Of a DNA stretch of 36,255 nt, positions 4,217 to 28,583 are shown in pieces. How positions within the stretch are numbered: the first letter of the stretch is position 1; the number at the start of each line of letters is the position of its first letter. The position numbers were made by a program, and so were the translations under genes. The notes under the pieces are model-generated. The model worked only from the letters and a program-made list of their open reading frames with translations, did no database searches and had not been told where the DNA came from. The DNA lies in assembly GCA_035652535.1 (NCBI GenBank), contig DASRDP010000163.1, positions 1 to 36,255 of the forward strand, given 5' to 3'. The stretch comes from Chloroflexota bacterium (lineage in GTDB: Bacteria > Chloroflexota > UBA6077 > SHYK01).

Positions 4217-5692
4217 ATGGAGTCGTATGACGTCGTGGTCGTCGGCGCTGGCAACGCCGGGCTCTGCGCGGCGCTCTCCGCGCGTGAGGCTGGCGCTCGC
4301 GTGGCAGTGCTCGAGAAGGCCCCGCGCGCTGAGCGCGGGGGAAACACCGCCTTCACCGGCGGCCTGCTCCGTTTCCCCTTCCAGGGCATCGAGGAGATCA
4401 AACCCCTTATTCCCGACTACACGGCCGACGAGCTGTCCAACGTCGACGTGGGACGCTACACCCAGCACGACTACGCCAGCGACCTCGAGCGCGTCACCGA
4501 AGGCCTTTCCGATCCGGCGCTCGTCGAGACGCTCGTCGGCAACGCCTACCCCACGATGCGTTGGATGCGCGACCGGGGCGTTCGATGGCTCCTCGCCCTC
4601 GGGCGCCAGTCGTACAAGGTCGGGGAGACGTATCGCTTTTTCGGCAACCTCATCCTTGAAGCCCATGGCGGTGGGCAGGGGCTGTCTGATCGCCTGTTCG
4701 AGATCGCCGAGGGCAGCGGCATCGAGATTCGGTACGACACGAAGGCCACCGGCCTCGACACGAACGCCAACGGCGCTGTGACAGGTGTCCGTATTCGCGA
4801 TCAGGACGGCGTTCACAACCTGTCGGCTCGCTCCGTGGTCCTCGCCTCCGGGGGGTTCGAGGCGAATCGCGAGATGCGCACCCGCTACCTCGGCCCCGAC
4901 TGGGAGCTGGCCAAGGTGCGCGGCACGCGTTTCAACACGGGTGATTCCATCCAGATGGCGCTCGCGATCGGCGCGCAGTCATACGGGCACTGGAGCTGTT
5001 GCCACGCCGTGGCGTGGGACCTCCTCGCCAACGAGGTCGGAGACCTCCGGATCGGCGACCTGCACCAGAAGCATTCGTATCCCCTCGGAATCGTCGTGAA
5101 CCGACTCGGGCAGCGATTCGTCGACGAGGGGGCGGACTTCCGAAACTACACCTATGCGAAGTACGGCCGCGAGATCTTGAAGCAGCCCGGTCGCCAGGCG
5201 TTTCAGATCTTCGACAGCAAGACCGTCCCCATGCTCCGCGATGAGTACCGGATCAAAGAGGCCACACGAGGCCGCGCGAACACGATCGCCGAGCTGGCCG
5301 ACCAGCTCACCATCGACCAGGACGGCCTCTCCCGAACGGTCGCGGAATTCAACGCTGCAATCCGGCCGGGCGAGTTCAATCCCTCGATCCTCGACGGCAA
5401 GCATACCGAGGGGATCACGCCGCCCAAGTCCAACTGGGCAATCCCCATCGACGAGCCGCCCTTTGAGGGCTACGCCGTCACCTGTGGGATCACCTTCACC
5501 TTCGGCGGCCTGCGCATCAATCCACGATGCCAGGTCCTCGATACCGAGAACCGCCCCATCCCCGGGCTCTTCGCGGCCGGCGAGCTGGTTGGCGGCCTGT
5601 TCTACTACAACTACCCCGGCGGCTCCGGGCTTATGGCAGGGGCAGTCTTTGGCCGCATCGCCGGCATGAGCGCGGGGGAGCATTCCGCATAG
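4217..5692 (+). CDS. tcuA: FAD-dependent tricarballylate dehydrogenase-like flavoprotein (TcuA type)
   Basis: 491 residues; ATG 2 bases after the preceding stop. The N-terminus carries the FAD motif VVVGAGNAGLCAALSAREAG followed by ERGGNTAFTGG. Later blocks include the RFFGNLILEAHGGGQGL segment, GGFEANREMRTRYLGPDW, and the C-terminal GLFAAGELVGG and YNYPGGSGLMAG. This layout is that of TcuA and its close relatives in the fumarate reductase flavoprotein family, which oxidise tricarballylate to cis-aconitate. TcuB, the usual electron-transfer partner, and the transporter TcuC are absent, so the true substrate may be another dicarboxylate-like acid or steroid-like ketone. The pair of flavoproteins may act in sequence or share an acceptor. 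Family call strong, substrate uncertain. Confidence 0.82.
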   Translation: MESYDVVVVGAGNAGLCAALSAREAGARVAVLEKAPRAERGGNTAFTGGLLRFPFQGIEEIKPLIPDYTADELSNVDVGRYTQHDYASDLERVTEGLSDPALVETLVGNAYPTMRWMRDRGVRWLLALGRQSYKVGETYRFFGNLILEAHGGGQGLSDRLFEIAEGSGIEIRYDTKATGLDTNANGAVTGVRIRDQDGVHNLSARSVVLASGGFEANREMRTRYLGPDWELAKVRGTRFNTGDSIQMALAIGAQSYGHWSCCHAVAWDLLANEVGDLRIGDLHQKHSYPLGIVVNRLGQRFVDEGADFRNYTYAKYGREILKQPGRQAFQIFDSKTVPMLRDEYRIKEATRGRANTIAELADQLTIDQDGLSRTVAEFNAAIRPGEFNPSILDGKHTEGITPPKSNWAIPIDEPPFEGYAVTCGITFTFGGLRINPRCQVLDTENRPIPGLFAAGELVGGLFYYNYPGGSGLMAGAVFGRIAGMSAGEHSA

Positions 5693-10388: not shown

Positions 10389-10533
10389 GATGTTGAGTTG
10401 CAGGGGGTCCGCACCTTATCAACAGCGGGCCATTCCCCTAAAATTTCCCCTGCAGTCGTTTTCGCGGGAAGGGTCAGTGGACAATACGCGCGCTGGTGGT
10501 CCGGATCGGCCTACAAGCGGACGACACACTGGG

Positions 10534-10606
10534 TGGACCTGAGGGGATTCGAACCCCTGACCTCGCGGATGCGAACCGCGCGCTCTCCCGACTGAGCTAC
10601 AGGCCC
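10534..10606 (-). tRNA. tRNA-Ala (anticodon CGC)
   Basis: Read on the minus strand, the gene folds as a complete cloverleaf of 73 bases: acceptor GGGCCTG / CAGGTCC, D arm GCTC...GAGC, anticodon arm CGCGG-TTCGCAT-CCGCG, and T arm AGGGG-TTCGAAT-CCCCT. The loop gives anticodon CGC, reading GCG (Ala). The acceptor stem has the G3:U70 wobble pair that marks alanine tRNAs, which confirms the call. The discriminator is A; the next bases read CCCA, so a proper CCA end is not encoded. A TATACT -10-like element sits about 35 bases upstream (10641-10646). Part of its 3' half is repeated at 8400-8446. Confidence 0.96.
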
Positions 10607-10733
10607 GTTCGACAAAAAACAGCCCTGGCGGGCCGCCCAAAGTATATCACGCCCCTCGCCGGGCACGGTCCGACGGCGACCGGCGCCGGTGGCGTCGCCC
10701 GCGCGACCCACATCACGACCGCGGAGAAGAGCA

Positions 10734-11528
10734 ATGGACCTCGAGCTGGCCGGGAAGGCCGCGGTTGTCACCGGCTCGTCCCGGGGAATCGGCAAGCACA
10801 TCGCCATCGCCTTGGCGCGCGAAGGCTGCAACGTGGCCCTCTCCGGTCGCGCCCGCGATACGCTCCTCGTGACCGGGCAAGAGATCCGCGACCTCGGTGC
10901 GCGGTGCATCGAAGTGGAAGGGGACCTGTCTATTCCGGGCGCGCCGGAGCGCCTGATCGATGCCGCGCGCCAGGCGTTCGGCCGCCTCGACGTCCTGGTC
11001 AACTGTGTTGGAGGAGGCCGCGGGCGCACGTTTCTCGAGACGAGCGACGAAGATTGGCAGGGAACCCTCGACGCCAACGTCTTTCCCGCCATTCGCTCCA
11101 GCCGCGCCGCGATCCCGATCATGAGAGAGCATGGCGGCGGCTCCATCATCATCATCTCGTCCATCTACGGCCGCGAGGTCGCGCCCCTGCCCGACGAGGC
11201 GCCGGCCTACAGCGCCGCCTACCATCTCGCGAAGATGGCGGAGATCAGCCTTTCAAAGACGATGGCGCGCGAACTTTCCCCCATGGGAATCCGCGTCAAC
11301 GTCGTAGCGCCCGGCTCGATCCTCTTCCCGGGCGGCACCTGGGACCGACGTCTGAACGCGGATCCGGAGCGGATCCAGCGCTTCGTGCGCCAGGAGATGC
11401 CCCTCGGCCGCTTCGGTCGGCCGGAGGAGGTCGCGGCCGTTGTGGCGTTCCTCGCCTCGCCGCGTGCGAGCCTGGTAACCGGCGCGTGCATACCGGTGGA
11501 CGGCGGCCAGACGCGATCCGCGATTTAA
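10734..11528 (+). CDS. Short-chain dehydrogenase/reductase (SDR)
   Basis: 264 residues; ATG chosen because GGAG lies 8 bases upstream and the dinucleotide-binding fold begins at once. The classical SDR motifs are all present: TGSSRGIG (13-20) for NAD(P) binding, the NCVGG variant of NNAG (90-94), Asn115, Ser142/143, and the catalytic Tyr163-x3-Lys167 (YHLAK). The end VTGACIPVDGGQTRSAI is the usual C-terminal dimer segment. It would oxidise or reduce a secondary alcohol/ketone or 3-oxoacyl group in the cytosol. Similar proteins are annotated FabG or generic 3-oxoacyl-ACP reductase, but no fatty acid synthesis genes are adjacent. It is transcribed away from the tRNA gene and is convergent with the nifS-like gene. 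Confidence 0.9.
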   Translation: MDLELAGKAAVVTGSSRGIGKHIAIALAREGCNVALSGRARDTLLVTGQEIRDLGARCIEVEGDLSIPGAPERLIDAARQAFGRLDVLVNCVGGGRGRTFLETSDEDWQGTLDANVFPAIRSSRAAIPIMREHGGGSIIIISSIYGREVAPLPDEAPAYSAAYHLAKMAEISLSKTMARELSPMGIRVNVVAPGSILFPGGTWDRRLNADPERIQRFVRQEMPLGRFGRPEEVAAVVAFLASPRASLVTGACIPVDGGQTRSAI

Positions 11529-11557
11529 CGCCTGCCGATCATCGGCCGCCGACCGGC

Positions 11558-12721
11558 TCACGATGCGCGCAGCGCGCGCATCCGCTCGATGATCGACGGC
11601 AGCACGGCGAGAACTTGGTCGATATCACCCTCGGTGTTCTCGACGCCGAGGCTGAGTCGAAGATTGCCCTCCGCCAAAGCCGACGGGACGCCCATCGCCC
11701 TCAGCACGTGCGACGGCTCCAGCGTGGCCGATGTGCAGGCTGATCCGGCAGCAGCCGCGATTCCTCTCAAGTCGAGCTGCTGGAGCAGCGCCTCTCCATC
11801 CACACCCTCAAAACAGAAGCTCGCCACGTGCGGCACGCGCTGGGTCGGATGGCCGGTCAACACAGCTCCGGGGATTGAGGCGAGGATCCCATCGATGAGC
11901 TTGCGCGCCAGAACCCCCGCGGCGGCCGAGCGCTCGGAGCACGACGGCAGCGCCAGCTCCAGCGCCTTCACCATCCCCATGATGGCAGGCACGTCCTCTT
12001 GGCCGGCGCGCCGACCGCGCTCGCGATCGTCGCCGGTGAGGATCGGCTGAAGCAGCACGCCCCGCCGTGCCCACAGCAGACCAGCGCCTTTCGGACCGCC
12101 GATCTTGTGCGCCGAGATCGAGAGAAGGTCCACGCCAAGCGAAGTAACCTCGATGGGAAGGTAACCAGCAGCGGCCACGGCGTCCGTGTGGACGACCGCC
12201 ATCGGCTGGGCGGCCTTCACGGTGCGCACGATCGCGTCGAGCGGCTGGAGCGAGCCGACCTCGTTGTTGGCCATCATGACCGAGACCAGCACCGTCTCGT
12301 CATCGAGCGCGGCGGTCAGAGCATCGAGCTGAACCACGCCGGCGCCATCGACGGGAAGATAGGTGACGCGCCAGCCCTGCTTCTCCAGCTGGCTCGCGGT
12401 ATCCAGCACCGCGCGGTGCTCCACCTGCGTGGTGATAAGATGGCGGCCGCGATGCTGGGTCGCGAGGGCGACGCCGCGAAGGGCGAGGTTGATGGACTCC
12501 GTGCCGGAGCTGGTGAACACCACCTCCGCGGGCTCGCCGCCGAGGACCGTCGCCGCGCGTCTCCGCGCATCCTCCAGCTCGCGCTTCATCGCACGACCGG
12601 CGCGGTAGAGCGCACCAGGGCTGCTCCAACGCTCGGTGAAGTACGGGAGCATCGCCTCCCATACCGACGGATCGATGGGCGCGGTGGCCGTGTGGTCGAG
12701 ATAAACACGGGGAGATTGCAC
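11558..12721 (-). CDS. Cysteine desulfurase, NifS/IscS family
   Basis: 387 residues with a GTG start. It is a fold-type I PLP enzyme with the schiff-base lysine in SISAHKIGGPKGAG (Lys206), the ring-stacking histidine EHRAVLDT (His102), Asp180 for the PLP nitrogen, and the sulfur-accepting cysteine in GSACTSATLEPSHVL (Cys329). It takes sulfur from L-cysteine for Fe-S clusters or tRNA thiolation. The PLP-contact glutamine that normally follows two residues after the Asp (DAVQ or DATQ) is alanine here (DAVAAAG), an uncommon change. No iscU, sufBC or mnmA is beside it. It ends 29 bases from the convergent SDR gene. NifS-like selenocysteine lyase activity cannot be excluded. Confidence 0.92.
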   Translation of the reverse strand: MQSPRVYLDHTATAPIDPSVWEAMLPYFTERWSSPGALYRAGRAMKRELEDARRRAATVLGGEPAEVVFTSSGTESINLALRGVALATQHRGRHLITTQVEHRAVLDTASQLEKQGWRVTYLPVDGAGVVQLDALTAALDDETVLVSVMMANNEVGSLQPLDAIVRTVKAAQPMAVVHTDAVAAAGYLPIEVTSLGVDLLSISAHKIGGPKGAGLLWARRGVLLQPILTGDDRERGRRAGQEDVPAIMGMVKALELALPSCSERSAAAGVLARKLIDGILASIPGAVLTGHPTQRVPHVASFCFEGVDGEALLQQLDLRGIAAAAGSACTSATLEPSHVLRAMGVPSALAEGNLRLSLGVENTEGDIDQVLAVLPSIIERMRALRAS

Positions 12722-17408: not shown

Positions 17409-18611
17409 TTATGGGATGCTGATCAAGCCGACGGGGCGCGTTCCGAGACGCTCGCCGCCGTTCGCAGTCACTCGCACGCTGTCGCCGAAGCGGCCCCAGA
17501 GATCCTTGCCATCGCGAATGATGCCTGGCTTGATGTCCATGACCATGTTTGTCTTGAGCTCCTGGCGGAGCAGGGCCGGATCAGGCTGGGTGAGCAGGGG
17601 CCAGTCCTCGCCCAGGCCGCGCCCGTGGGCGATGAGCCTCGCCTCGTAGGTCATTCCTTTCGCGGAAGCAGCGCACGCGTTGGCGACATCGCCCAAGGTG
17701 TTCCCTGACCTCATAGCCGGAAGCGCCGCAGCGAACGCGTCCGCCTGCGCCCTCGCCATGTCTCGGATAAGCTGGGGGACCGTGCCGATGGTAAACGTCT
17801 GGTCCATCTGCGACAGGTAGCCTTGCCACTTCCCCTCGATCTGGCAGTACACGATGTCGCCCTCTTCGATGACGCGCGTCGGCGTTGCCTGGGTCAGGCG
17901 CGTGTAGGGCATACCCGCGCGGCTCGCGTGCCAGGCCAACATGAATGGCACTTCGCCGCCGTCCTCGATCTCGGCGGCCACCATGCGCGCGTAGACTACG
18001 CGGTCTTTCACCCCAGCGCGCGCCACCTCCGAGAAAGCGCGAACCGCGGCCTCCGCGATCCGGACCGCCTTGCGCACGAAGGCAATCTCCTCGTCGCTCA
18101 TGACCGAGCGCACGCGGTACATGAGAGGAGTCGCGTTCACAATCTCCGCCCGGGGAAAGGCCGCCCGGATCTTCGCGATGACGGCCGCCCCGACGATGCC
18201 ATCGGGGGCGCGAATCAGCCCGGCCAGCCCAGCGATGCCGATTCGCTTTCCATCCGCTCCAAGCTCTCCGAGCCGATCAACGATCCCGTCCACCTCGTGT
18301 CGCGCGTACTCTCGGACATCCGCCACCCACCCGGGCTTGGCTCGCGCGATGAGTGTCACCTCGCCCTGTAACGGCAGGATCGCATGCGGATCAATGTCGT
18401 TGCCCCCGTGCTGTGTGATGTAGCGGGCATCGGCGGTATGATGGCCGTAGCGACCGGTGTTACCGGTTGCCACAAGGATGTCGATGGCCTCGGCCCGCAT
18501 CTCATCCCGAATCGCCTTCCAGCGGCGGTCGCGCTCCGCGAGGGAGAAGGTCAGCGGCGCATCAGGGCTGGAATCATCAATCGCTCCGCTCACCGGGCGT
18601 TGGCCCGGCAC
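17409..18611 (-). CDS. M24 (aminopeptidase P / creatinase) fold protein with degraded metal site
   Basis: 400 residues with a GTG start. An N-terminal creatinase-like domain (about 20-160) is followed by a pita-bread domain. The family's five metal ligands (Asp, Asp, His, Glu, Glu) are mostly gone. The first Asp is Glu259 (VYCQIEGKW). The SD of GYxSDxTRT is Ser-Gln (GYLSQMDQTF). His329 is kept (IAHGRGLGED). The EPG glutamate is Lys361 (DIKPGI). The last Glu is Gly (RFGDSVRVT). Creatinase also lacks metal, so this is probably a hydrolase or lyase of the metal-free kind, or uses a different metal scheme. It is the last gene of the VOC-Rieske run and overlaps the three-domain VOC gene by 22 bases, so it is probably part of that pathway. 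Confidence 0.82.
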   Translation of the reverse strand: MPGQRPVSGAIDDSSPDAPLTFSLAERDRRWKAIRDEMRAEAIDILVATGNTGRYGHHTADARYITQHGGNDIDPHAILPLQGEVTLIARAKPGWVADVREYARHEVDGIVDRLGELGADGKRIGIAGLAGLIRAPDGIVGAAVIAKIRAAFPRAEIVNATPLMYRVRSVMSDEEIAFVRKAVRIAEAAVRAFSEVARAGVKDRVVYARMVAAEIEDGGEVPFMLAWHASRAGMPYTRLTQATPTRVIEEGDIVYCQIEGKWQGYLSQMDQTFTIGTVPQLIRDMARAQADAFAAALPAMRSGNTLGDVANACAASAKGMTYEARLIAHGRGLGEDWPLLTQPDPALLRQELKTNMVMDIKPGIIRDGKDLWGRFGDSVRVTANGGERLGTRPVGLISIP

Positions 18612-19936
18612 ACAAGCTGCAGGAAGTTCCCCGCCGGGTCACGTACGTAGACGTCATCCCCCTCCCGCGTGCACGCGAGCCCAATGCCCACAAGAGCGGT
18701 GACTGCATCTCCGGCGGCCACTCGCGCCTGGAAAATCAACCGGGGCGTCCCCTCGGCCTGATCTTCGGGGGGCTCCTGGCGATGCTCCTTCGCCAACACC
18801 ATGTCGAGCATGGTCGAGCCGTACCGAACGAAGAGCTGCTGGTTGGGACCGGGCTTGCCGCCCTTCCGCTCTGTGTAGCGCTTTTCCGTCAACCGGGTCC
18901 ACGGGGCACACGGATCGCCGTCGGCCGCCCGCTTCGCTTCGAGGATGTCCTCCACGGCGCGGCCAAAGCAATGATCAACTGTCCCACCCAGGATGCGCGT
19001 GTAGAAGAACTCCATCGGGTCCATGTCGAACACTTCAATCGCACCGTGGTCCAGCAATACCCCGCCGGGTTCGCCGCTCACGAGCTGCACCTGGTTGCCG
19101 CTTGGGTCGACGACGTATGCCGTGGCCTGTTTCTCTGCCGGATGATCCTCGCGCCACCAGCTCACCCTGTGGCCTCCTTGCTCAAGCTCCGCCACCAGCG
19201 CAGGCAGGCGATCCGGTCCGACGCGGTACGCGACGTGGTGCCCGCTGCCGGGGAGCGTTCGGGGTTCGGTGCACGCGACGAAGTAGACGCTCTGCAATCC
19301 GTGGTGGTACGCAAGTCGGTCAGCGGCCGCTTCCCACTCACCTTCGCCGTCGCCGAATATCCTCGCGTAGAACGCACGGGTCGCGGCAAGATCTCTCACC
19401 TCTACTACCGCACCAGCAAGAAGATCGAGGGGCACCAGGCCTTCGACCGGCGGCTCCGGCCGAAACACTGTGGCTCGCGCGGGGAGCCGCACCGGCCGGT
19501 ATTGCTCTAACTCGTCCCGTCTCCAGCAGATCTCCTGGAAGTTCCCACCCGGGTCCTGGAAGTAAATGGATTCCCCGAGCGGCCCGTCTGGCGGATGGAC
19601 GACCGGCCCCTCGAATGGAATCCCGTTTCTCCGGAGATGCTCGATGACCTCGGCGAATCGGCTTCGGGAGACGGCGAACGCCGACCGGAAATTGTTGATG
19701 CCCCGCTGCAGGTCCGCAGGCGGCGAAGGAATCACGTCGAACGGCAGCATTGGGGTAAACATGTAGTCGGCGACCGTCATGACCGTGTGGAGCGAGCGGC
19801 CGCGAGGCGCGTTGTCCGTGTCAAAGTGGTTTCGGTTCACGAGCCGCGCGCCCAGCGCTCGCCCGTAGAACTCCTCGCTTTCCATGAGGCTCAATGCCAC
19901 GGGCCCGGTGTGGGTCAGTCCCTCGACTTCGGCCAT
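18590..19936 (-). CDS. Three-domain VOC (glyoxalase/extradiol dioxygenase fold) protein
   Basis: 448 residues; AGGAGG lies 8 bases before the ATG. Three VOC-type units follow each other at about residues 5-140, 170-290 and 295-445; each ends with a DPxGNxxQ or DPxGNxxE strand. Domain 1 closely resembles the one-domain protein at 21822-22298; domains 2-3 resemble the two-domain protein at 20845-21801 (shared WWREDHP, CAPWTRL, PNQQ and HRQEPPE blocks). Domain 1 keeps His9 and Glu135 but has Ser85 where the one-domain protein has His85, so one putative metal ligand is missing. VOC proteins bind divalent metal and act as dioxygenases, isomerases or lyases, or bind ligands. The gene starts 30 bases after the VOC-Rieske gene and overlaps the M24 gene. 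Confidence 0.88.
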   Translation of the reverse strand: MAEVEGLTHTGPVALSLMESEEFYGRALGARLVNRNHFDTDNAPRGRSLHTVMTVADYMFTPMLPFDVIPSPPADLQRGINNFRSAFAVSRSRFAEVIEHLRRNGIPFEGPVVHPPDGPLGESIYFQDPGGNFQEICWRRDELEQYRPVRLPARATVFRPEPPVEGLVPLDLLAGAVVEVRDLAATRAFYARIFGDGEGEWEAAADRLAYHHGLQSVYFVACTEPRTLPGSGHHVAYRVGPDRLPALVAELEQGGHRVSWWREDHPAEKQATAYVVDPSGNQVQLVSGEPGGVLLDHGAIEVFDMDPMEFFYTRILGGTVDHCFGRAVEDILEAKRAADGDPCAPWTRLTEKRYTERKGGKPGPNQQLFVRYGSTMLDMVLAKEHRQEPPEDQAEGTPRLIFQARVAAGDAVTALVGIGLACTREGDDVYVRDPAGNFLQLVCRANAR

Positions 19937-19966: not shown

Positions 19967-20827
19967 TTAGGGCGCTGGGCTCGCCTGTGCCGGCTCGTAC
20001 GTCGCACGGTCGATGACCCGGTCCGTGTCGACGAGCACGTGCCCGTCCGCACTAAAGCTAATAGGGTTGAGCCGGAGCGCGGGAAGATTGCGGAAGCGCC
20101 CACTCCAGCGTGTAAGAACGGTCGGCGCCCCGCACCGGTCGTAAGTCGCATGGTGGAAGGGGCAATAGAAGTGCCAGTGCTCCTGTCGCCAGATGACCCG
20201 TCCGTTGAAGTGACGGCACCAGCGGGAGAGTGCGAGGAAGCCCTCAGGCACGCGAACGAGAAAGAACTCACCGTCCTTGAACAGCTTCACGTCGCCCACC
20301 TGATAGCTGTCCACCGGGCCGCAGTCGACCACGCCGACTCCTGGGAAGATCACCTCCGTCGCCTGTACGGGGTCGAGCGTCTCAATCTGGACGTGGTGCC
20401 CGTCAGGATCGTAGAGCTCGATCGAGTAGTCGCCGCGCGTGATCTCGCGGTCGCAGAGCATCTCGATCCCCAGATCACGAAGTCGGTCCATCGCTCGCCG
20501 CATCTGGCTCGGCGTGAGGATGAACCCGTGGTGGAGCCCCACGCTCCCCGGTCGCGGGACAACTACGCTCTCCCGCTCAACGAGGATCAGGAGCTGCCCC
20601 GTGTTCATGCGCAGGACCGAGTGGGGCCGCTCCTCGTTTGTCAAGTTGCGGCCCAACACGTCCAGGCCAATGATGTCGCGGTACCAGGCTTCGCTCCGAT
20701 CGAGATCGCTCGTCTCCAGCACGAGGTGGCTGAATCGCTCGACGACATCCCCGGGCTGGAAAGCTTTGCCGAAGAACTCCGGCGGCTCATCCGATTCGGT
20801 TGGGACTGTCTCGATCCTATATGGCAC
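19967..20827 (-). CDS. VOC-Rieske fusion protein, copy 2
   Basis: 286 residues, GTG start with AGGAGG 4 bases before it. Residues about 30-155 form a VOC domain with a putative His-His-Glu metal triad: His34 (RFSHLVL), His99 or His100 (GLHHGFIL) and Glu149 (HHVQIET). Residues about 168-270 form a Rieske [2Fe-2S] domain: Cys204-x-His206, 15 residues, Cys222-x2-His225 (WCRH and YCPFHH), ending in FSADGHVLV. The Rieske box normally ends CPxHG; here Gly is His. An oxygenase-like metal centre and an electron-transfer cluster on one chain suggest a self-reduced iron dioxygenase or an enzyme whose iron is kept ferrous by the cluster. Copy 1 lies at 22328-23197. No ferredoxin reductase is near. Domain calls strong, function inferred. 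Confidence 0.87.
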   Translation of the reverse strand: MPYRIETVPTESDEPPEFFGKAFQPGDVVERFSHLVLETSDLDRSEAWYRDIIGLDVLGRNLTNEERPHSVLRMNTGQLLILVERESVVVPRPGSVGLHHGFILTPSQMRRAMDRLRDLGIEMLCDREITRGDYSIELYDPDGHHVQIETLDPVQATEVIFPGVGVVDCGPVDSYQVGDVKLFKDGEFFLVRVPEGFLALSRWCRHFNGRVIWRQEHWHFYCPFHHATYDRCGAPTVLTRWSGRFRNLPALRLNPISFSADGHVLVDTDRVIDRATYEPAQASPAP

Positions 20828-20844
20828 GGACCCTCCTGTGATCG

Positions 20845-21801
20845 CTAAGATCGGCCGCTCGCCCGATGCTCCATGGTGTCGGCGCCGTCGACCTGTACAA
20901 AGTTCCCCGCGGGGTCGCGGAGGTAGACGACCGGCCCATCAACCCGGAACGTGAGGGGCAGACGATCCTCCGGCGTAAGCGGAAAGGGGGTCGAGGAAAG
21001 CCGTGCGCCGATAGTCGCGACGGGGAGCCGGCTACAGAAGACGATCCGCGGTGTCCCCTGCGCCTGCTCCTCCGGCGGCTCCTGCCGGTGCTTCCCAGCG
21101 AGAACAACGGCCAGGCGTGTCTCGCCGAATCGAAAGAACACCTGCTGATTGGGATGGGGCACACGCGACTTATGCCGTAGATCTGTCGACAGGCCGGCGC
21201 CCGGCCAGAGTCGCGTCCACGGCGCGCACGGGTCCCCGCCGCCCTCCCAGGCTAGCGCCTCCTGGTAATCGCGGGCTCGACGGCCATGGTAATAGTCGAC
21301 CTGCCCGCCCAGCACCTTGCCGTAGAACACTTCAGCGCTCTCCAGATCGTGCACCTCGACGCCGACATGGTCGAGGAATCCGAACTGATCCAGATCCGCA
21401 GCTGCGGACTCAACGAGCTGGACGCGGTTGCCGTCCGGGTCGAGCAGATACGCCGAGACCTGGCGCTCTGAAGGATGATCCTCGCGCCACCAGTCGACCA
21501 CGTAGCCGAGTCCAAGCAATTCCCCGATGATTCCCCTCAGCGATTCCGCAGGGACCCGATAGGCCTGGTGGCGTCCCGTCTCCTCGGTGCCTCGCGGGTG
21601 CTGTCGCTGACGGAACCGCAGGGATTGGCCGACGGACCGAAAATTCAGCGTGTCTCGCTCTCGCCCCCATTCGCCGGCGGCGTGCCGGAGGATCGGTTCG
21701 TAGAACGCCCGCGCGGCGGCAAGGTCCTCCGCGTCGGAAACGACGCCGATGATTTCGCTCGCCTCGACGAGCGAACGGAACTGAACTTCCGATCGAGCCA
21801 T
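20845..21801 (-). CDS. Two-domain VOC protein
   Basis: 318 residues from the ATG at 21801. A TTG eight codons upstream (21825) overlaps the stop of the preceding gene and is an alternative start by translational coupling. Two VOC units follow (about 10-130 and 138-305), with DPDGNRVQLVE and DPAGNFVQVDG closing strands. By eye it aligns along its length with residues 160-448 of the three-domain protein at 18590-19936 (WWREDHP, CAPWTRL, PNQQVFFRFG, HRQEPPEEQAQGTPR). It is followed after 17 bases by the second VOC-Rieske gene. With the one-domain protein before it, it makes up the unfused form of the three-domain protein. A binding or catalytic role in the same step is inferred. Confidence 0.86.
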   Translation of the reverse strand: MARSEVQFRSLVEASEIIGVVSDAEDLAAARAFYEPILRHAAGEWGRERDTLNFRSVGQSLRFRQRQHPRGTEETGRHQAYRVPAESLRGIIGELLGLGYVVDWWREDHPSERQVSAYLLDPDGNRVQLVESAAADLDQFGFLDHVGVEVHDLESAEVFYGKVLGGQVDYYHGRRARDYQEALAWEGGGDPCAPWTRLWPGAGLSTDLRHKSRVPHPNQQVFFRFGETRLAVVLAGKHRQEPPEEQAQGTPRIVFCSRLPVATIGARLSSTPFPLTPEDRLPLTFRVDGPVVYLRDPAGNFVQVDGADTMEHRASGRS

Positions 21802-21821
21802 CTCTGTCTGGCGTGCAGCAG

Positions 21822-22298
21822 TCAATGCTCCGCCAGCTTACCGGTCGTGATCACCGGGTGGAAGGGACGGTCCCGGTCCCGCCTCCAGCAGATCTCGAGG
21901 AAGTTTCCAGCTGGATCGCGCAGGTAGATCGATTGCCCGAGTGGACCTGACTCGGGATGGGTCACTGGCCCGTCGAACGACACGCCCCTCGTCCCGAGCT
22001 CTTTCAACACTTCTTCGAACCGCACCCGTGAGACCCAGAATGCGTGGCGCAGCGGGTTCGCGCCCCTGCGCTCGTCGGAGCTCGGCTGCGGCAGCAGGTT
22101 CTTCGGCACCATCAAGGCCAGCAGATAATCCGCCAGTGCCACGACGGTATTGAGCGACCGACCCCGCACGACCTTGTCGACGTGGAAGCCGCTCCGATTG
22201 CTGAATGTGGCGCCCAGGCGTTCGACGTAGAACTCCTCCGACTCCGGGAGATCGAGGGCGCAAATGCCGCTGTGGGTGATTCCTTCGACTGCCGCCAT
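21822..22298 (-). CDS. One-domain VOC protein with intact putative metal triad
   Basis: 158 residues; GAGGAG lies 6 bases before the ATG. A single VOC unit, with His9 (GITHSGI), His85 (LRHAFWV) and Glu135 (GNFLEICW) in the places of the family's metal ligands. It is the counterpart of domain 1 of the three-domain protein (shared GRSL, LADY, GPLGxSIY and EICWRRD), but that domain has Ser at position 85. If both forms dimerise with the two-domain partner, this copy would be the metal-active version. It sits between the first VOC-Rieske gene (29 bases upstream) and the two-domain VOC gene. Confidence 0.86.
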   Translation of the reverse strand: MAAVEGITHSGICALDLPESEEFYVERLGATFSNRSGFHVDKVVRGRSLNTVVALADYLLALMVPKNLLPQPSSDERRGANPLRHAFWVSRVRFEEVLKELGTRGVSFDGPVTHPESGPLGQSIYLRDPAGNFLEICWRRDRDRPFHPVITTGKLAEH

Positions 22299-22327
22299 GG
22301 CAATCTCCTCAAACTGGATCTGGGCGC

Positions 22328-23197
22328 TCAGGATGCGCTCACTGGCGGTGACGCGATGCTCGCGAGCTGCTCTGGCGCGAACGCGGCACGCTCGACGACC
22401 TCGTCAGTATTCACCAACACGTGGCCGTCCGCGCTAAAGCTCACGGGGTGAAGGCGCAGGGCCTTGAGATCCGGGAAGCGATTCGACGAGCAGGTCGGAT
22501 TCCCGCGCCGGTCGTAGGTCGCCGTGTGCATCGCGCACCAAAACCGCCAGTGCTCCTTCTGGTATACGAGGAGGCCATTCAGGTGGCTGCACCAGCGGGT
22601 GAGCGCCAGAAACCCGTCATCGATCCGTACCAAGAAAAAGTTGGCATCTCGGAAGAGCTTGACCTCGCCACTCTCATAGGAGTCCGCGGGACCGCAATCG
22701 ATCGTGCCCTTATTCGGCAGCAGGACCTCATGCGACTGAATCTCGTCCATCGTCTCGATCTGGTAGTGGTGTCCGTCCGGGTCATACACGTCGATGCTGT
22801 ACTGACCCCGGGCGATGAACTCCTCACGCTGGGCCACCACGTCGATTCCGGCTGCCCGCAGCCGATTGACCGCCTGACGATACTGGTTCTGGGTGAGGGC
22901 AAAGCCGTGGTGAACGCCCTGGGCGTTCTGGCGCACGGTATCGATCTCGTCGTACTGGACGAGAATGATGAGCTGCCCAGTGTTCATTTGCAGGACGGCA
23001 TGTGGCTGCGGCTCCGCGGTCAACCCGCGTCCCAAGAAGTCCAACCCGATCACATCACGGTACCAGGCCTCGCTCCGATCGAGATCGGTCACGGCGACGA
23101 CGAGGTGGCTGAAGTGCTCCACGACCGCGTCCGGCTCGGGCTCGCAGCCATAGAAGATCGGAAGCTCATCCGATGGATTCGGCAACTCCTCTTTCAT
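22328..23197 (-). CDS. VOC-Rieske fusion protein, copy 1
   Basis: 289 residues; ATG chosen for the GGAG five bases upstream and alignment with copy 2, since a much longer in-frame extension overlaps the binding-protein gene. The VOC domain (about 27-155) carries His31 (HFSHLVV), His96/97 (GVHHGFAL) and Glu148 (HHYQIET). The Rieske domain (about 167-270) has Cys203-x-His205 and Cys221-x2-His224 with 15 residues between (WCSH, WCAMH), and the closing FSADGHVLV. By eye, about half of all residues equal those of copy 2 (19967-20827), so the two arose by duplication. It is the first gene after the substrate-binding lipoprotein gene. The substrate is unknown; an aromatic diol or a related ring would suit the fold. 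Confidence 0.87.
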   Translation of the reverse strand: MKEELPNPSDELPIFYGCEPEPDAVVEHFSHLVVAVTDLDRSEAWYRDVIGLDFLGRGLTAEPQPHAVLQMNTGQLIILVQYDEIDTVRQNAQGVHHGFALTQNQYRQAVNRLRAAGIDVVAQREEFIARGQYSIDVYDPDGHHYQIETMDEIQSHEVLLPNKGTIDCGPADSYESGEVKLFRDANFFLVRIDDGFLALTRWCSHLNGLLVYQKEHWRFWCAMHTATYDRRGNPTCSSNRFPDLKALRLHPVSFSADGHVLVNTDEVVERAAFAPEQLASIASPPVSAS

Positions 23198-23226: not shown

Positions 23227-25002
23227 CTAACGGACGTCCCACTCGCCGGCGTTCCAGGTCATGGCGGTGCGGGGCTGCGTGTCTCCCCTGATGCCGACGA
23301 CGCCCTCCCGGAAGATCATAGCTTGGGGATTGAAGTAGAGCGGAAACACTGGCAGGTCCTCCGTCTGGATTCGTACCAGCGACCGGTAGAGCGCACGCTG
23401 ATCGTTCGGTTCGATCGCCGACTGCAGCCCGTCGAGCAGCCGATCGAACTCCGGGTTCTGGTAGCAGCCATGGTTGGGACCGGTCCACCTGTTGGCGTCT
23501 CCAGGGCAGCTGGCCGAGTGCAGGCGCGTCGACAGGTGCTCGAACGTCAGCGGTCCAGCCGAGGCGCTAAACCCAGGAAAGATAGAGTTGAGACGGTTGT
23601 CCCGCGCCTCCGCGGCGGTGCGAACATGTTGGTCCACAGCGAAGCCAAGGTCGCGCCAGTTCGCGGCGATGATCGACAATTCCTGTTCCGACTGAGCGCC
23701 AGCGGACGTCTCGACCGGGATGGACACCTGCTTGCCGCTTGCGTCAACAATCGAACCGCTGGGCCCACGGACCCAGCCGACGGCACTGAGCGAGTCCACT
23801 GCTTTCCGCAGGTCAAACTCGTATTTGACGACGACATCCTTCACCCAGTCCCATTTCGCGTCCTCAGGGAAGAAGAACGTGTCCGACACCGGAAGCGTGC
23901 CGTCAAGCAGCGTATCCACGAGCGCCTGGCGGTCGATTGCGGAGAGGAGTGCGCGCCGAACGCGCACATCTAGAATCTCTGGCGGGTTGGCGAGCTGCCG
24001 GCGTAATTGCGGCTCGAATACGCGCCAATGGGTTGGCTGAATGATCGCGAGCGGCTTTCGGCCAGCCTGTTCCCATTGGCTCTTCACTGAGCTAACGTCG
24101 CTGAAATCGAGCGCACGCGGGATTGCTCCATCTATAGACCCAGCAAGCAAATTTGCGACGGTCGTTTGTGGATCCGGGATGAACTGGAAAACGAGAGCGT
24201 CAATTTTGGGTCGGCCGGCATAGAACTGGTCGTAGGCTCGTAGGGTGAGATGGCTCCCAGCCTCCCAGTCTTGAAGCCGATAGGGCCCGACGCCGACAAA
24301 CTGCCTGGTCCAGTACGGGAGATCCGCGAAATGCTCTTTGTTCTCCGTGTATTGCTGCTCCAGGAGGTGCCGCGGCATCGGGCCAATCTGATCGTCGACG
24401 AGGGCGTTTGCGAACGGGTACGTGGTATCCCACTCGATGACCAGCGTGCGGTCGTCAGGGACGTCTATGCCGGTGATCCGCCGAGCGATGTTCCGGTTCC
24501 GCATGGGGACGTCAGGATCCTTCGTAACTTGCCAACCGAAGACGAAATCGGCACTCGTGAGAGGAGTTCCGTCATGCCAAGTCACACCCGGCCGGAGACG
24601 GTACGTCGTGGTCATGGTCCCATCACTCCGGACGACCCAGCTCCCATCGTCCCGGGACGGAAGGGACTCAGCGAGCATGGGGTGGAGGCCGCCGCGGTCG
24701 TCGTAGTTCGCGAGCGATTGATGGACGGCGAGCTTCAGATTACCGGCGATCGTACCCGCGCCCCCAGACATACTGCCCACGAACGGATCCAGGGGCTCAC
24801 CCTCCAATGCGAGGACGAGGGTCTTGGCGCGTTCCCCCTGCGGGCTGGGGACGGACTGCGCTGGGGCGGAACTGCTGGGGCCTCTCGAACCAGCGACGCC
24901 CGCGTTGCTCATGCAAGCGGATGCCACCAAAGGAAGCAACAAGAGGACCGACAAAAGTCGCCAGGATGCCAAGTCCGGCCACCCCCATGAGATCCGGTCC
25001 AT
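23227..25002 (-). CDS. ABC transporter substrate-binding lipoprotein, family 5 (DppA/OppA-like)
   Basis: 591 residues. A hydrophobic N-terminal segment (LLSVLLLLPLVASAC) ends in a cysteine that can serve as lipoprotein anchor, then a Ser/Pro-rich linker. Family 5 traits are clear: LVLALEGEPLDPF, the YRLRPGVTWHDGTPLTSADFVF block, the GVGPYRLQDWEAG strand and repeated lobes. These bind peptides, sugars or other organic solutes outside the membrane. No permease or ATPase genes follow, which is odd. It leads the VOC-Rieske run and ends 29 bases before it, so its ligand may be the substrate of those enzymes. A TTG start at 24972 is possible and would leave a shorter, typical signal peptide. Confidence 0.9.
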   Translation of the reverse strand: MDRISWGWPDLASWRLLSVLLLLPLVASACMSNAGVAGSRGPSSSAPAQSVPSPQGERAKTLVLALEGEPLDPFVGSMSGGAGTIAGNLKLAVHQSLANYDDRGGLHPMLAESLPSRDDGSWVVRSDGTMTTTYRLRPGVTWHDGTPLTSADFVFGWQVTKDPDVPMRNRNIARRITGIDVPDDRTLVIEWDTTYPFANALVDDQIGPMPRHLLEQQYTENKEHFADLPYWTRQFVGVGPYRLQDWEAGSHLTLRAYDQFYAGRPKIDALVFQFIPDPQTTVANLLAGSIDGAIPRALDFSDVSSVKSQWEQAGRKPLAIIQPTHWRVFEPQLRRQLANPPEILDVRVRRALLSAIDRQALVDTLLDGTLPVSDTFFFPEDAKWDWVKDVVVKYEFDLRKAVDSLSAVGWVRGPSGSIVDASGKQVSIPVETSAGAQSEQELSIIAANWRDLGFAVDQHVRTAAEARDNRLNSIFPGFSASAGPLTFEHLSTRLHSASCPGDANRWTGPNHGCYQNPEFDRLLDGLQSAIEPNDQRALYRSLVRIQTEDLPVFPLYFNPQAMIFREGVVGIRGDTQPRTAMTWNAGEWDVR

Positions 25003-25113: not shown

Positions 25114-25827
25114 ATGGAAATCGCGTCCGGCATTCACCAGCTCCGCGCGATCGCCTGCCAGGTGTTCGCCCTCCTAGAGGACGATGGCGTCACACTGATC
25201 GATACGGGCGCGCCAGGGAGCGGGTGGCTCATTCTTCGCCAGCTCCGCCAATCGGGCAGGTCGCCCTCCGACATCAAGCGCATCGTCTTGACGCACTACC
25301 ACATCGATCACCGCGGGACGGCTGCAGAGTTGCGTCGAGCATCCGGGGCCGACGTGTTGATCCATACGAGTGAGGCGACCTACCTGCGCGGCGAAATGGC
25401 GTATCCCAATCCGATCCAGACCCAGCCCCTCGCCATGCTCACGACCCCACTCTTTTCCCTCATGCGAGGCAGACCGGTTCCAGCCATCGAATTGCACGAC
25501 GGCGAGGTCCTTCCGGTGATGGGCGGGCTCCGGGTGATTCACGCTACCGGGCACACGCGGGGCAGCATCACGCTCTCCCTCCCCGGGCAGGGGCTGTTGT
25601 TCGCAGGCGACGTCATGGGCTTTCATCGACAAGAATTGCAGGAGCCGGATGCACGGGTTACGGAGAATCCCACCCACGCCCGGGCATCGCTGGAGCGGCT
25701 TGCCGCCCTGGACATCGAAACCATCTGCTTCAGCCATTTCCCTCCGCTCCGGGAGCATGCCCGGACCCGCCTTGAGCTGCTGGTCGCCACGTGGTCGCCA
25801 GAGTTTGGTGAGCGCACCTGGCGTTGA
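25114..25827 (+). CDS. Metallo-beta-lactamase-fold hydrolase
   Basis: 237 residues from the ATG. The metal-binding motif HxHxDH is present as HYHIDH, with the further His in HATGHTRGSI, the Asp of LLFAGDVMG and a final His in CFSHFPP. The strand TLIDTGAPGSG before it is typical. The fold covers glyoxalase II-like thioesterases, lactonases and nucleases; the short length and missing extra domains favour a glyoxalase II-like or lactonase-type enzyme. Divergent from the VOC-Rieske operon with a 111-bp gap, and 161 bases ahead of the ligase-acyltransferase fusion. Substrate unknown. Confidence 0.87.
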   Translation: MEIASGIHQLRAIACQVFALLEDDGVTLIDTGAPGSGWLILRQLRQSGRSPSDIKRIVLTHYHIDHRGTAAELRRASGADVLIHTSEATYLRGEMAYPNPIQTQPLAMLTTPLFSLMRGRPVPAIELHDGEVLPVMGGLRVIHATGHTRGSITLSLPGQGLLFAGDVMGFHRQELQEPDARVTENPTHARASLERLAALDIETICFSHFPPLREHARTRLELLVATWSPEFGERTWR

Positions 25828-25988
25828 TGCGCCACGGGTCTCTCCGATGTGCTTTGATCTCGGCGGATTGGTTCGGCACTGCCCGCCGGGCACTACCTAG
25901 AGCTGCAACGATGGGCTATCTTGGACCCGCTCGCCGGCGGGGTCGCGCGGGACTTCGAGAACCGTGGTTCTTCGGACAGGAGCGGGGG

Positions 25989-28583
25989 ATGGAGAGCAAG
26001 ACGCCGGGCCAGCTGTTAGCCGTGGCAAGGGATCCCAGGACCACGCATGAATCCGGACCTCCTGGGACCCTGGGACACTTCCTCTCCGACGAAGCCACTC
26101 GATATGGGGCCAACCCCGCTCTGGCCATCAAGCTCGGGTTCCGAACCCAGACCATCAGCTATGCGGAGCTCGACCGGCTCGCCCTTCGTGTGGGGCGAAT
26201 GCTGCAGGAGCGGGGCGTGCGCGAGGGCGACCGGGTCGTTCTCTGGGGGCCGAACATGCCCGCCTGGGTCGCGGCCTTCTTTGGCTGTCACAAGACGGGT
26301 GCCGTGGCAGTGCCGTTGGATGTCCGAAGCAGTCCCGACTTCGTGGCATCCGTCGTTCGGCAGACCGACGCTCGCTTCGCGTTCCTCTCCCGTGCAACCA
26401 AACGGATCGGCGGGGATCAACTCCCGCTGCATGTCGAGCTCGAGGAGCTGGACAGCGCGCTGACCGAAGATGATCGACTCCTGGACCCCGTGGAGCCTTC
26501 ACCGGATGACCTGGCAGAGGTCATGTTCACCTCCGGCACGACGGGCGATCCCAAGGGCGTCATGCTGACCCATCGCAACGTGCTCGCCAACGTCGAGGGG
26601 GTGGGCCAGGTGATCGACATCCGCCCCGATTTCCGCCTCCTCTCGCTTCTCCCCTTGAGCCACATGCTGGAACAGACGGTCGGCCTTCTGGCACCCCTCT
26701 CCGGCGGGTGTCGCATCACCTACCCTGTGAGTCGCCAACCGGCCATGCTCTTCCGTGCGATTGCCGAGAACCAGGTCACCATGCTGGTGCTTGTCCCCCA
26801 GGCACTCCAGCTCTTTCTCAACGCAATCGAGCGGGAAGTCAAACGCCAGGGGCGAGAAGCGGCCTTCGAGCGTCTCTTCGTCCGCGCCCGGCACCTCCCC
26901 ATGCACCTGCGACGGAAGCTGTTCCGCAGGGTGCACAGGCGGTTTGGAGGAAACCTAGAGATCGTCATCAGCGGCGGGGCCCATCTGGATCCGGACCTGG
27001 CCCGGCGGTGGGAGCTGATGGGCGTCACGGTGCTCCAGGGCTATGGAGCCACGGAAGCCTCGCCCATCATCTCCTGCGACCGGCCCGCTGAGCGCCGGGC
27101 CGGCGCTGTGGGGCGGCCGTTCCCGGCCGTGGACCTCCGGATCAACGACGATGGCGAGATTCTCGCCAAAGGACCGAACATCTTCCGCGGCTACTGGAAC
27201 AATCCGGCAGCGACCCAGGCGGTCCTGCGCGATGGCTGGTATTTCACCGGCGATCTGGGGCGCATCGACGCCGACGGCTTTCTCTACCTGAGCGGACGCA
27301 AGAAGGACCTGATTGTCCTCGCCAACGGCCAGAACGTGTACCCGGAAGACATCGAGCAGTGCCTCATTCGAGAGCCGGCGGTCACGGACGCCGTCGTGAT
27401 CGGCCTCGAAGGCCCGGGCGGCGGGGTACAGGTGCACGCGGCGCTCCTGTTGACTGACCCGAGCCTGGCAGCTGCAGCGGTGCGCGCGGCCAACGCGCAG
27501 CTTGCCGCCCACCAGCAGATCCAGGGCTTCACGGTGTGGCCGGATGTGGATTTCCCCCGGACCCACACGCTGAAAGTCAAGAAAACAGAGGTCGCCACGC
27601 GGCTCCGCGAGCTGCAATCGGCGCACGAGGGCAGCCCAGCGTCAGCGCTGCTAACACACGGGTCCCAGGATCCCATGTCGACTGATCCACTGAGGCGCCT
27701 GATTGGCGAGGTGAGTGGCGTCGCCACGTCGCGGATTCAGCCGGGAAATGTCCTCGGTGCGGATCTGGGTCTGGATTCCCTGATGCGAGTCGAGCTCCTC
27801 TCCGCCATCGAGGAGGAGCTCGGCGTCTTCGTGGATGAGGCGGTCGTGACCCCGGAGACGTCGGTGGCCGACCTGGCGCGATATGTGGCCGAGGCCGAGC
27901 CTCGGGCAGAGGCGCAGGGGATTGTGACCTGGCCGCTCACGCCAGCCGCCGGTATCGCTCGGGAGCTGTTCCTGCAAGGCTTGGTCTTCCCCCTCTACCA
28001 TGTGTTCTGGCGCGTCCGGGTGGAGGGGCGGGAGCGGATCCAGCACCTGCCTGGGCCAGTCATGGTTGCGGCCAATCATCATTTCGCGGCCGGCACCTTT
28101 GGGATGGACCCGGCCGCGGCCTGGATGGCGCTCCCGCGTCATCTTCGACGGCGCACCTGCACGGCGGGCGAAGAGCACGCGGTGTTCGATCCGAAAATCG
28201 GTGGCGCCATTGCGCGCCTGTGCAACGCCTTCCCGCTCTCGAAGCAGGGCAATGTGCGAGGCAGCCTCGAGTACATTGGGCGGCTCCTGGATCTGGGCTG
28301 GTCGGTGCTGATCTTCCCGGAGGGGAACCTCTTCGATGGCGGTCCAATGCGGCCCTTCATGGGCGGCACCGGGCTCATGGCGGTCGAATGCCGAGTGCCG
28401 GTGGTACCCATGTGGATCGAGGTCAAGCGACGTAGCGTGCTCCAGACGGGCCACGACGCATGGCGCGGTGCCTTCACGGTGCGCATCGGTGAGCCGCTAA
28501 TGTTCGCCCCGGGCACACCGTATGGGGAGGCCACCGCCGAAATCGAAGCGGCTGTGCGCGCCCTATCGATGGACGGGTATTGA
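25989..28583 (+). CDS. AMP-dependent acyl ligase - ACP - acyltransferase fusion
   Basis: 864 residues from an ATG with AGGAG 6 bases upstream; longer in-frame starts lack a ribosome site. Domain order: acyl-AMP ligase (about 1-560) with MFTSGTTGDPKGVMLTHRN (from about 180), YGATEAS and SGRKKDLIVLANGQNVYPED; an acyl carrier domain (about 565-645) with the 4'-phosphopantetheine site LGADLGLDSLMRVEL (Ser597); and a PlsC-like acyltransferase (about 670-864) with IFPEGNLFDGG (776-). The family HX4D box is unusual: NHHFAAGTFGMD has no Asp five residues after His697, but one at +10. The enzyme would activate a fatty acid, hold it on its own carrier and pass it to an acceptor, as in AAS-type lysophospholipid acylation. 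Its end overlaps the convergent brkB-like gene by 21 bases. Confidence 0.87.
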   Translation: MESKTPGQLLAVARDPRTTHESGPPGTLGHFLSDEATRYGANPALAIKLGFRTQTISYAELDRLALRVGRMLQERGVREGDRVVLWGPNMPAWVAAFFGCHKTGAVAVPLDVRSSPDFVASVVRQTDARFAFLSRATKRIGGDQLPLHVELEELDSALTEDDRLLDPVEPSPDDLAEVMFTSGTTGDPKGVMLTHRNVLANVEGVGQVIDIRPDFRLLSLLPLSHMLEQTVGLLAPLSGGCRITYPVSRQPAMLFRAIAENQVTMLVLVPQALQLFLNAIEREVKRQGREAAFERLFVRARHLPMHLRRKLFRRVHRRFGGNLEIVISGGAHLDPDLARRWELMGVTVLQGYGATEASPIISCDRPAERRAGAVGRPFPAVDLRINDDGEILAKGPNIFRGYWNNPAATQAVLRDGWYFTGDLGRIDADGFLYLSGRKKDLIVLANGQNVYPEDIEQCLIREPAVTDAVVIGLEGPGGGVQVHAALLLTDPSLAAAAVRAANAQLAAHQQIQGFTVWPDVDFPRTHTLKVKKTEVATRLRELQSAHEGSPASALLTHGSQDPMSTDPLRRLIGEVSGVATSRIQPGNVLGADLGLDSLMRVELLSAIEEELGVFVDEAVVTPETSVADLARYVAEAEPRAEAQGIVTWPLTPAAGIARELFLQGLVFPLYHVFWRVRVEGRERIQHLPGPVMVAANHHFAAGTFGMDPAAAWMALPRHLRRRTCTAGEEHAVFDPKIGGAIARLCNAFPLSKQGNVRGSLEYIGRLLDLGWSVLIFPEGNLFDGGPMRPFMGGTGLMAVECRVPVVPMWIEVKRRSVLQTGHDAWRGAFTVRIGEPLMFAPGTPYGEATAEIEAAVRALSMDGY

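Follow-up and report, generated by a model that had tools for sequence, protein, structure and literature searches.

VOC–Rieske fusion proteins with conserved VOC partners in a Chloroflexota operon: candidate redox subunits of heteromeric VOC enzymes

Two genes in a 36,255-nt stretch of Chloroflexota DNA, called the window below, encode fusions of a VOC domain with a Rieske domain (VR_A and VR_B). We tentatively propose, at a probability of roughly 0.45, that they belong to heteromeric VOC enzymes in which a built-in Rieske electron relay would feed the VOC metal site for the oxidation of organic substrates. The VOC–Rieske architecture itself is real. Two paralogous proteins of this kind had been described here in a first-pass annotation, and this description holds: the proteins are 59% identical in alignment and both domains score above the Pfam cut-offs, PF00903 with 37.3 bits (4e-9) in VR_A and 43.8 bits (4e-11) in VR_B against a cut-off of 20.6, and PF00355 with 20.4 and 23.9 bits, respectively, against a curated cut-off of 20.3. 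Profile scores and fold matches together place both in the VOC superfamily (PF00903), while the PF00355 score and the cluster ligands discussed below mark the second half as a Rieske domain. Structure prediction, proposed in the same annotation as a check, was run for VR_B with AlphaFold and gave two folded domains (mean pLDDT 78.7, pTM 0.64), with pLDDT mostly above 80 except in the N-terminal 28 residues. Foldseek hits were to FosA/FosX folds on the one hand and to a Rieske protein on the other, with single-domain matches only among those listed. Sequence searches of solved structures likewise led from the N-terminal half to fosfomycin-resistance VOC proteins and from the C-terminal half to Rieske proteins, no single chain among the matches listed spanning both. 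An NCBIfam fosfomycin-resistance identity for the fusions was rejected, the score being at most 37.7 bits against cut-offs of 170-310.

Both genes lie in a seven-gene operon (Table 1) whose members are separated by gaps of 17-30 bases or overlap slightly; the first-pass annotation, given for 19967-23197, leaves out five genes of this operon. The solute-binding protein gene, first in order, lies 29 bases upstream of VR_B and has relatives adjoining VR cassettes at many other loci, and the M24 hydrolase gene at the other end overlaps VOC3 by 22 bases. VOC3 is a natural fusion of VOC1 and VOC2 and is the partner of VR_A; its model gave Foldseek matches to tandem-VOC proteins. The window thus contains two paralogous units of VR with VOC1/VOC2. 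No dedicated reductase gene was found in the operon. On the plus strand, outside the operon, are genes for a benzoate-CoA-ligase family protein and an aldehyde dehydrogenase. Elsewhere in the window, 25824-28583 encodes a 919-aa protein with an AMP-binding ligase, a phosphopantetheine carrier domain and an acyltransferase, and a plus-strand 415-aa ORF at 10496-11743 has no Pfam match at 1e-5.

Table 1 Genes of the operon, in operon order
Feature	Coordinates	Strand	Evidence
ABC transporter substrate-binding protein, SBP_bac_5 (PF00496)	23227..25002	-	Pfam 3e-57
VR_B: VOC (residues ~28-150) and Rieske (~165-265)	22328..23197	-	Pfam, alignment, AlphaFold model
VOC1, single VOC protein	21822..22298	-	Pfam, residue table
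VOC2, tandem VOC protein	20845..21825	-	Pfam, residue table; 4-base overlap with VOC1
VR_A: VOC and Rieske	19967..20827	-	Pfam, alignment, residue table over relatives
VOC3, three VOC domains	18590..19936	-	phmmer to VOC1 and VOC2, AlphaFold model, Foldseek
M24 hydrolase (creatinase/prolidase/DoeA-like)	17409..18611	-	PF00557 2e-22, PF01321

Thirty loci, spread over five Chloroflexota genomes, carry the unit of VR and VOC1, with or without a tandem VOC2: G177 has 15, G047 seven, the window's genome four, G013 three and B78T1L10 one. Setting aside one G177 locus with a broken frame leaves 29 intact VR relatives, 20 in clade I, to which both window copies belong, and nine in clade II. VR is followed by VOC1 on the same strand at 25 of the 29 intact loci. 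In clade I the tandem VOC2 or its fusion comes next at 18 of 20 loci, the remaining two being cut at contig ends, and in clade II VOC2 was found at none of the nine. The distance matrices of VR and VOC1 are correlated (r = 0.85, with none of 5000 permutations as high; 0.69 within clade I). This shows a cassette diverging as a unit; the correlation is also compatible with a complex, and would be expected merely from travelling in one cassette. It had been suggested that two copies in one operon imply either different substrates or a heteromer. The former is consistent with two old, separately conserved paralogues. A main heteromer of VR_A with VR_B was rejected, since each has its own VOC partner genes; because the two copies read better as paralogous VR + VOC1/VOC2 cassettes, a neighbouring VOC protein is the likelier partner of each.

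The Rieske half carries the C-x-H, 15 residues, C-x2-H motif noted at first reading (C204/H206/C222/H225 in VR_A and C203/H205/C221/H224 in VR_B). The motif is intact and is not a chance occurrence, because the four ligands are invariant in all 29 intact relatives. By profile search, fold search and tree, the domain groups with the cytochrome bc/b6f type. Its best PDB match is the soluble domain of kuste4569 (9rk4; profile 3e-19, TM 0.81 on the target), and the branch parting it from a comparison set of three ring-hydroxylating oxygenases from these genomes is supported at 97/92, with a long-branch warning attached. In contrast to bc1/b6f Rieske proteins such as kuste4569, the VR proteins show no visible membrane anchor and are fused to a VOC domain, and the window's clade is without the disulphide cysteines of that type (CTHxxC, CxCH). 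These are missing from all 20 clade-I members, which also lack the Gly-Ser after the last Rieske histidine, and both cysteines are retained in seven of nine clade-II members; judged by these cysteines, neither window copy is a bc1/b6f Rieske subunit. Missing disulphide cysteines in Rieske proteins are associated with a lower cluster potential, which suggests, by analogy, that a cluster assembled in clade I would have a lower potential.

At the VOC metal site the picture is less classical. In FosA of Klebsiella (FosA-KP) manganese is bound by His7, His67 and Glu113 (PMC10779102). Alignments to FosA-type proteins bring His34 and His99 of VR_A onto FosA His7 and His64/67, and place Gln147 of VR_A and Gln146 of VR_B at the position of FosA Glu110/113, three residues past a conserved DPDGH. 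The corresponding residues of VR_B are His31, His96, Gln146 and Glu148. Among the 29 intact relatives (VR_A numbering), His99 is kept in every one and His34 in 27 of 28 readable cases, while position 147 is Gln in 24, Glu in four and Arg in one. On these counts, two histidines with a glutamine make up the usual pattern of the family. The His-His-Glu set first annotated was thus right in its residue numbers and in both histidines and wrong in taking Glu149 (Glu148 in VR_B) as the canonical ligand: this residue sits two positions beyond the canonical one and is found in only five of 29 members, namely the two window copies and the three relatives nearest to them, which form the window's own subclade. 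The other 24 have Gln, Thr, Cys, Asp or Ala there. Glu149 could nevertheless contribute to the site in the two window proteins. Neither the FosA-type His-His-Glu site nor the type I extradiol triad at canonical VOC positions is present in them, and an extradiol-type 2-His-1-Glu site is unsupported for the family because the canonical glutamate is so predominantly Gln.

These residues bear directly on whether VR might be a self-reactivating dioxygenase of extradiol type, with Fe(II) on His34/His99/Glu149 cleaving a diol and the Rieske cluster serving only to re-reduce oxidised iron, much as the ferredoxin XylT re-reduces catechol 2,3-dioxygenase. Such an enzyme would account for the two conserved histidines and for the retention of Glu149/148 in the window's subclade, and a LigB ring-cleavage gene and bicupins do lie near some other copies. 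However, Glu149 is off the canonical position and replaced in most of the family, the canonical position is itself mostly Gln, the closest structural matches to the VOC domain of VR are FosA/FosB/FosX and not extradiol dioxygenases, and the conserved VOC1/VOC2 partners would be left unexplained. The missing canonical glutamate and the partner proteins therefore lead us to consider self-reactivation unlikely in general; for the window's subclade it is possible, and not favoured.

The partner proteins depart from the classical site as well. In all readable members of VOC1 the three metal positions are His (β1), Arg (β5) and Glu (β8). At these positions, VOC2 of the window has Gly/His/Gln in domain 1 and His/Arg/Gln in domain 2, and its relatives have mostly Gly, then His and Gln, in the first and His, Arg (one Ser) and Glu or Gln in the second. 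A classical His-His-Glu set within one domain occurs in neither VOC1 nor any VOC2 domain. The second module carries His/Gln in VR and in domain 1 of VOC2, and Arg/Glu in VOC1 and in domain 2 of VOC2; we hypothesise that these halves would be complementary if modules exchange between domains in the fashion of the FosA dimer. Alternatively, VR could serve in electron transfer, with a non-catalytic VOC part for docking or for holding substrate and a Rieske cluster that feeds another enzyme such as VOC1/VOC2 or a nearby Rieske oxygenase. This would fit the stricter conservation of the Rieske ligands than of the VOC glutamate, which is missing from its canonical position, and the Rieske genes found close to four other copies. 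Yet His34 and His99 are kept although docking would not need them, and no domain of VOC1 or VOC2 has a full His-His-Glu set either; we regard this reading as rather unlikely.

We tentatively favour the following account of how a heteromeric enzyme with a built-in relay might work. The operon would specify two related VOC enzymes, each heteromeric, with VR_A and VR_B as their redox subunits. The VOC domain of VR may form a domain-swapped pair like that of FosA, either with a second copy of itself or with VOC1, and this pairing would yield a mononuclear metal site of two histidines and Gln/Glu. Single electrons would pass from a cellular reductase to the Rieske cluster and on to the VOC metal, where they would enable a bound organic substrate to be oxidised with O2. 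Import of this substrate could be the task of the solute-binding protein, with the M24 enzyme acting on the substrate or its product. The many paralogues would differ in the compounds they act on, which are probably aromatic or phenolic. A bolder extension, which we consider doubtful, makes these proteins a new class of oxygenases: heteromeric VOC enzymes with a two-His + Gln/Glu site that draw electrons from a fused bc/b6f-type Rieske domain, that arose separately from the ring-hydroxylating family and that have since branched into many paralogues, each specific for its substrate.

The genes near other copies may point to the catabolism of aromatic or similar compounds. Rieske oxygenases lie near VR at L039, L042 and L043 and a further Rieske protein at L013, a LigB ring-opening dioxygenase at L015, bicupins at L042 and L044, a luciferase-like monooxygenase at L017 and a siderophore-interacting-type FAD reductase at L044; M24 enzymes and several kinds of solute-binding protein also recur. 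The oxygenase and ring-cleavage neighbours vary by locus and may be common throughout these genomes. The Rieske oxygenase at L039 (14749-16065), in the window's own genome, is of LigXa type and lies about 5 kb from a clade-II copy. Non-oxygenase VOC chemistry, as in an isomerase, hydrolase or thiol transferase, with the Rieske cluster as a redox switch or sensor rather than a catalytic donor, would be in keeping with the nearest folds, the thiol transferases FosA/FosB and the hydrolase FosX, and with the M24 hydrolase and peptide-type binding protein in the operon. We think it quite improbable, as a sensing or structural role does not obviously need such strict ligand retention in 29 paralogues, and oxygenase genes recur nearby.

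Although its VOC and Rieske domains are each familiar, we did not find the fusion, its conserved VOC partners or its bc/b6f affinity described. The fusion as a unit has no matching entry among those searched in Pfam, NCBIfam and the PDB, and the open-access literature searched gave no description of it, of its VOC partners or of its bc/b6f-type affinity, though one may exist elsewhere. Nothing relevant on Rieske ferredoxins reactivating extradiol enzymes, on XylT or on a 2-His-1-Gln site was found in the same literature. The single-VOC, dimeric FosA/FosB/FosX proteins are the best-matching solved VOC fold, with aligned histidine ligands in β1 and β5, but VR has Gln for the Glu ligand and an added Rieske domain. 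Type I extradiol dioxygenases (BphC, catechol 2,3-dioxygenase) share the VOC superfamily and have folds resembling the tandem VOC partners, whereas the VR and partner domains are without the canonical His-His-Glu and VR has a cluster. A parallel in working would be the Rieske non-haem iron oxygenases, in which a Rieske cluster feeds a mononuclear metal. VR differs from these in that its catalytic domain is VOC, with no PF00848- or LigXa-type domain detected by Pfam, and its Rieske domain comes from another subfamily; by this measure it is not one of them. To our knowledge, only one catalytic fold is known in which a Rieske cluster drives catalysis by non-haem iron. If our proposal is true, the pairing with the VOC fold would be a second, independent case, meaning that evolution arrived at this redox solution at least twice, and uncultured Chloroflexota would possess a large group of so far unstudied enzymes that might contribute to the breakdown of aromatic carbon. 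The SAR202 pangenome records expanded ring-hydroxylating dioxygenases, and its main text makes no mention of glyoxalase or vicinal-oxygen-chelate proteins (PMC6946804).

The distribution of the family is patchy. It is present in three of five genomes sampled from the window's taxonomic family, and no VOC–Rieske fusion was found in other genomes of the class, where Rieske-only matches (L053-L062, L066) look like bc-type subunits and were set aside. In a phylum sample that leaves out the window's genome it appears in three of 399 genomes. The scan of the genome collection relied on exact 8-residue patterns and would miss distant relatives, so that other phyla may have the family. A tblastn search of a plasmid collection returned FosA8-type VOC matches only and no fusion. 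Other genera contain orthologues of VR_A and, separately, of VR_B, with dN/dS between orthologues of 0.06 and 0.11-0.13; the two are old paralogues kept by purifying selection. At one locus (L017/L087, 3927-5411) the Rieske part (4501-4917) is out of frame with the sequence around it, whose own frame continues into VOC1, possibly through assembly error or decay. At L040 (10161-13277, G047:C277), three clade-II VOC–Rieske genes stand near-tandem with one VOC1, on a contig that also bears three clade-I cassettes.
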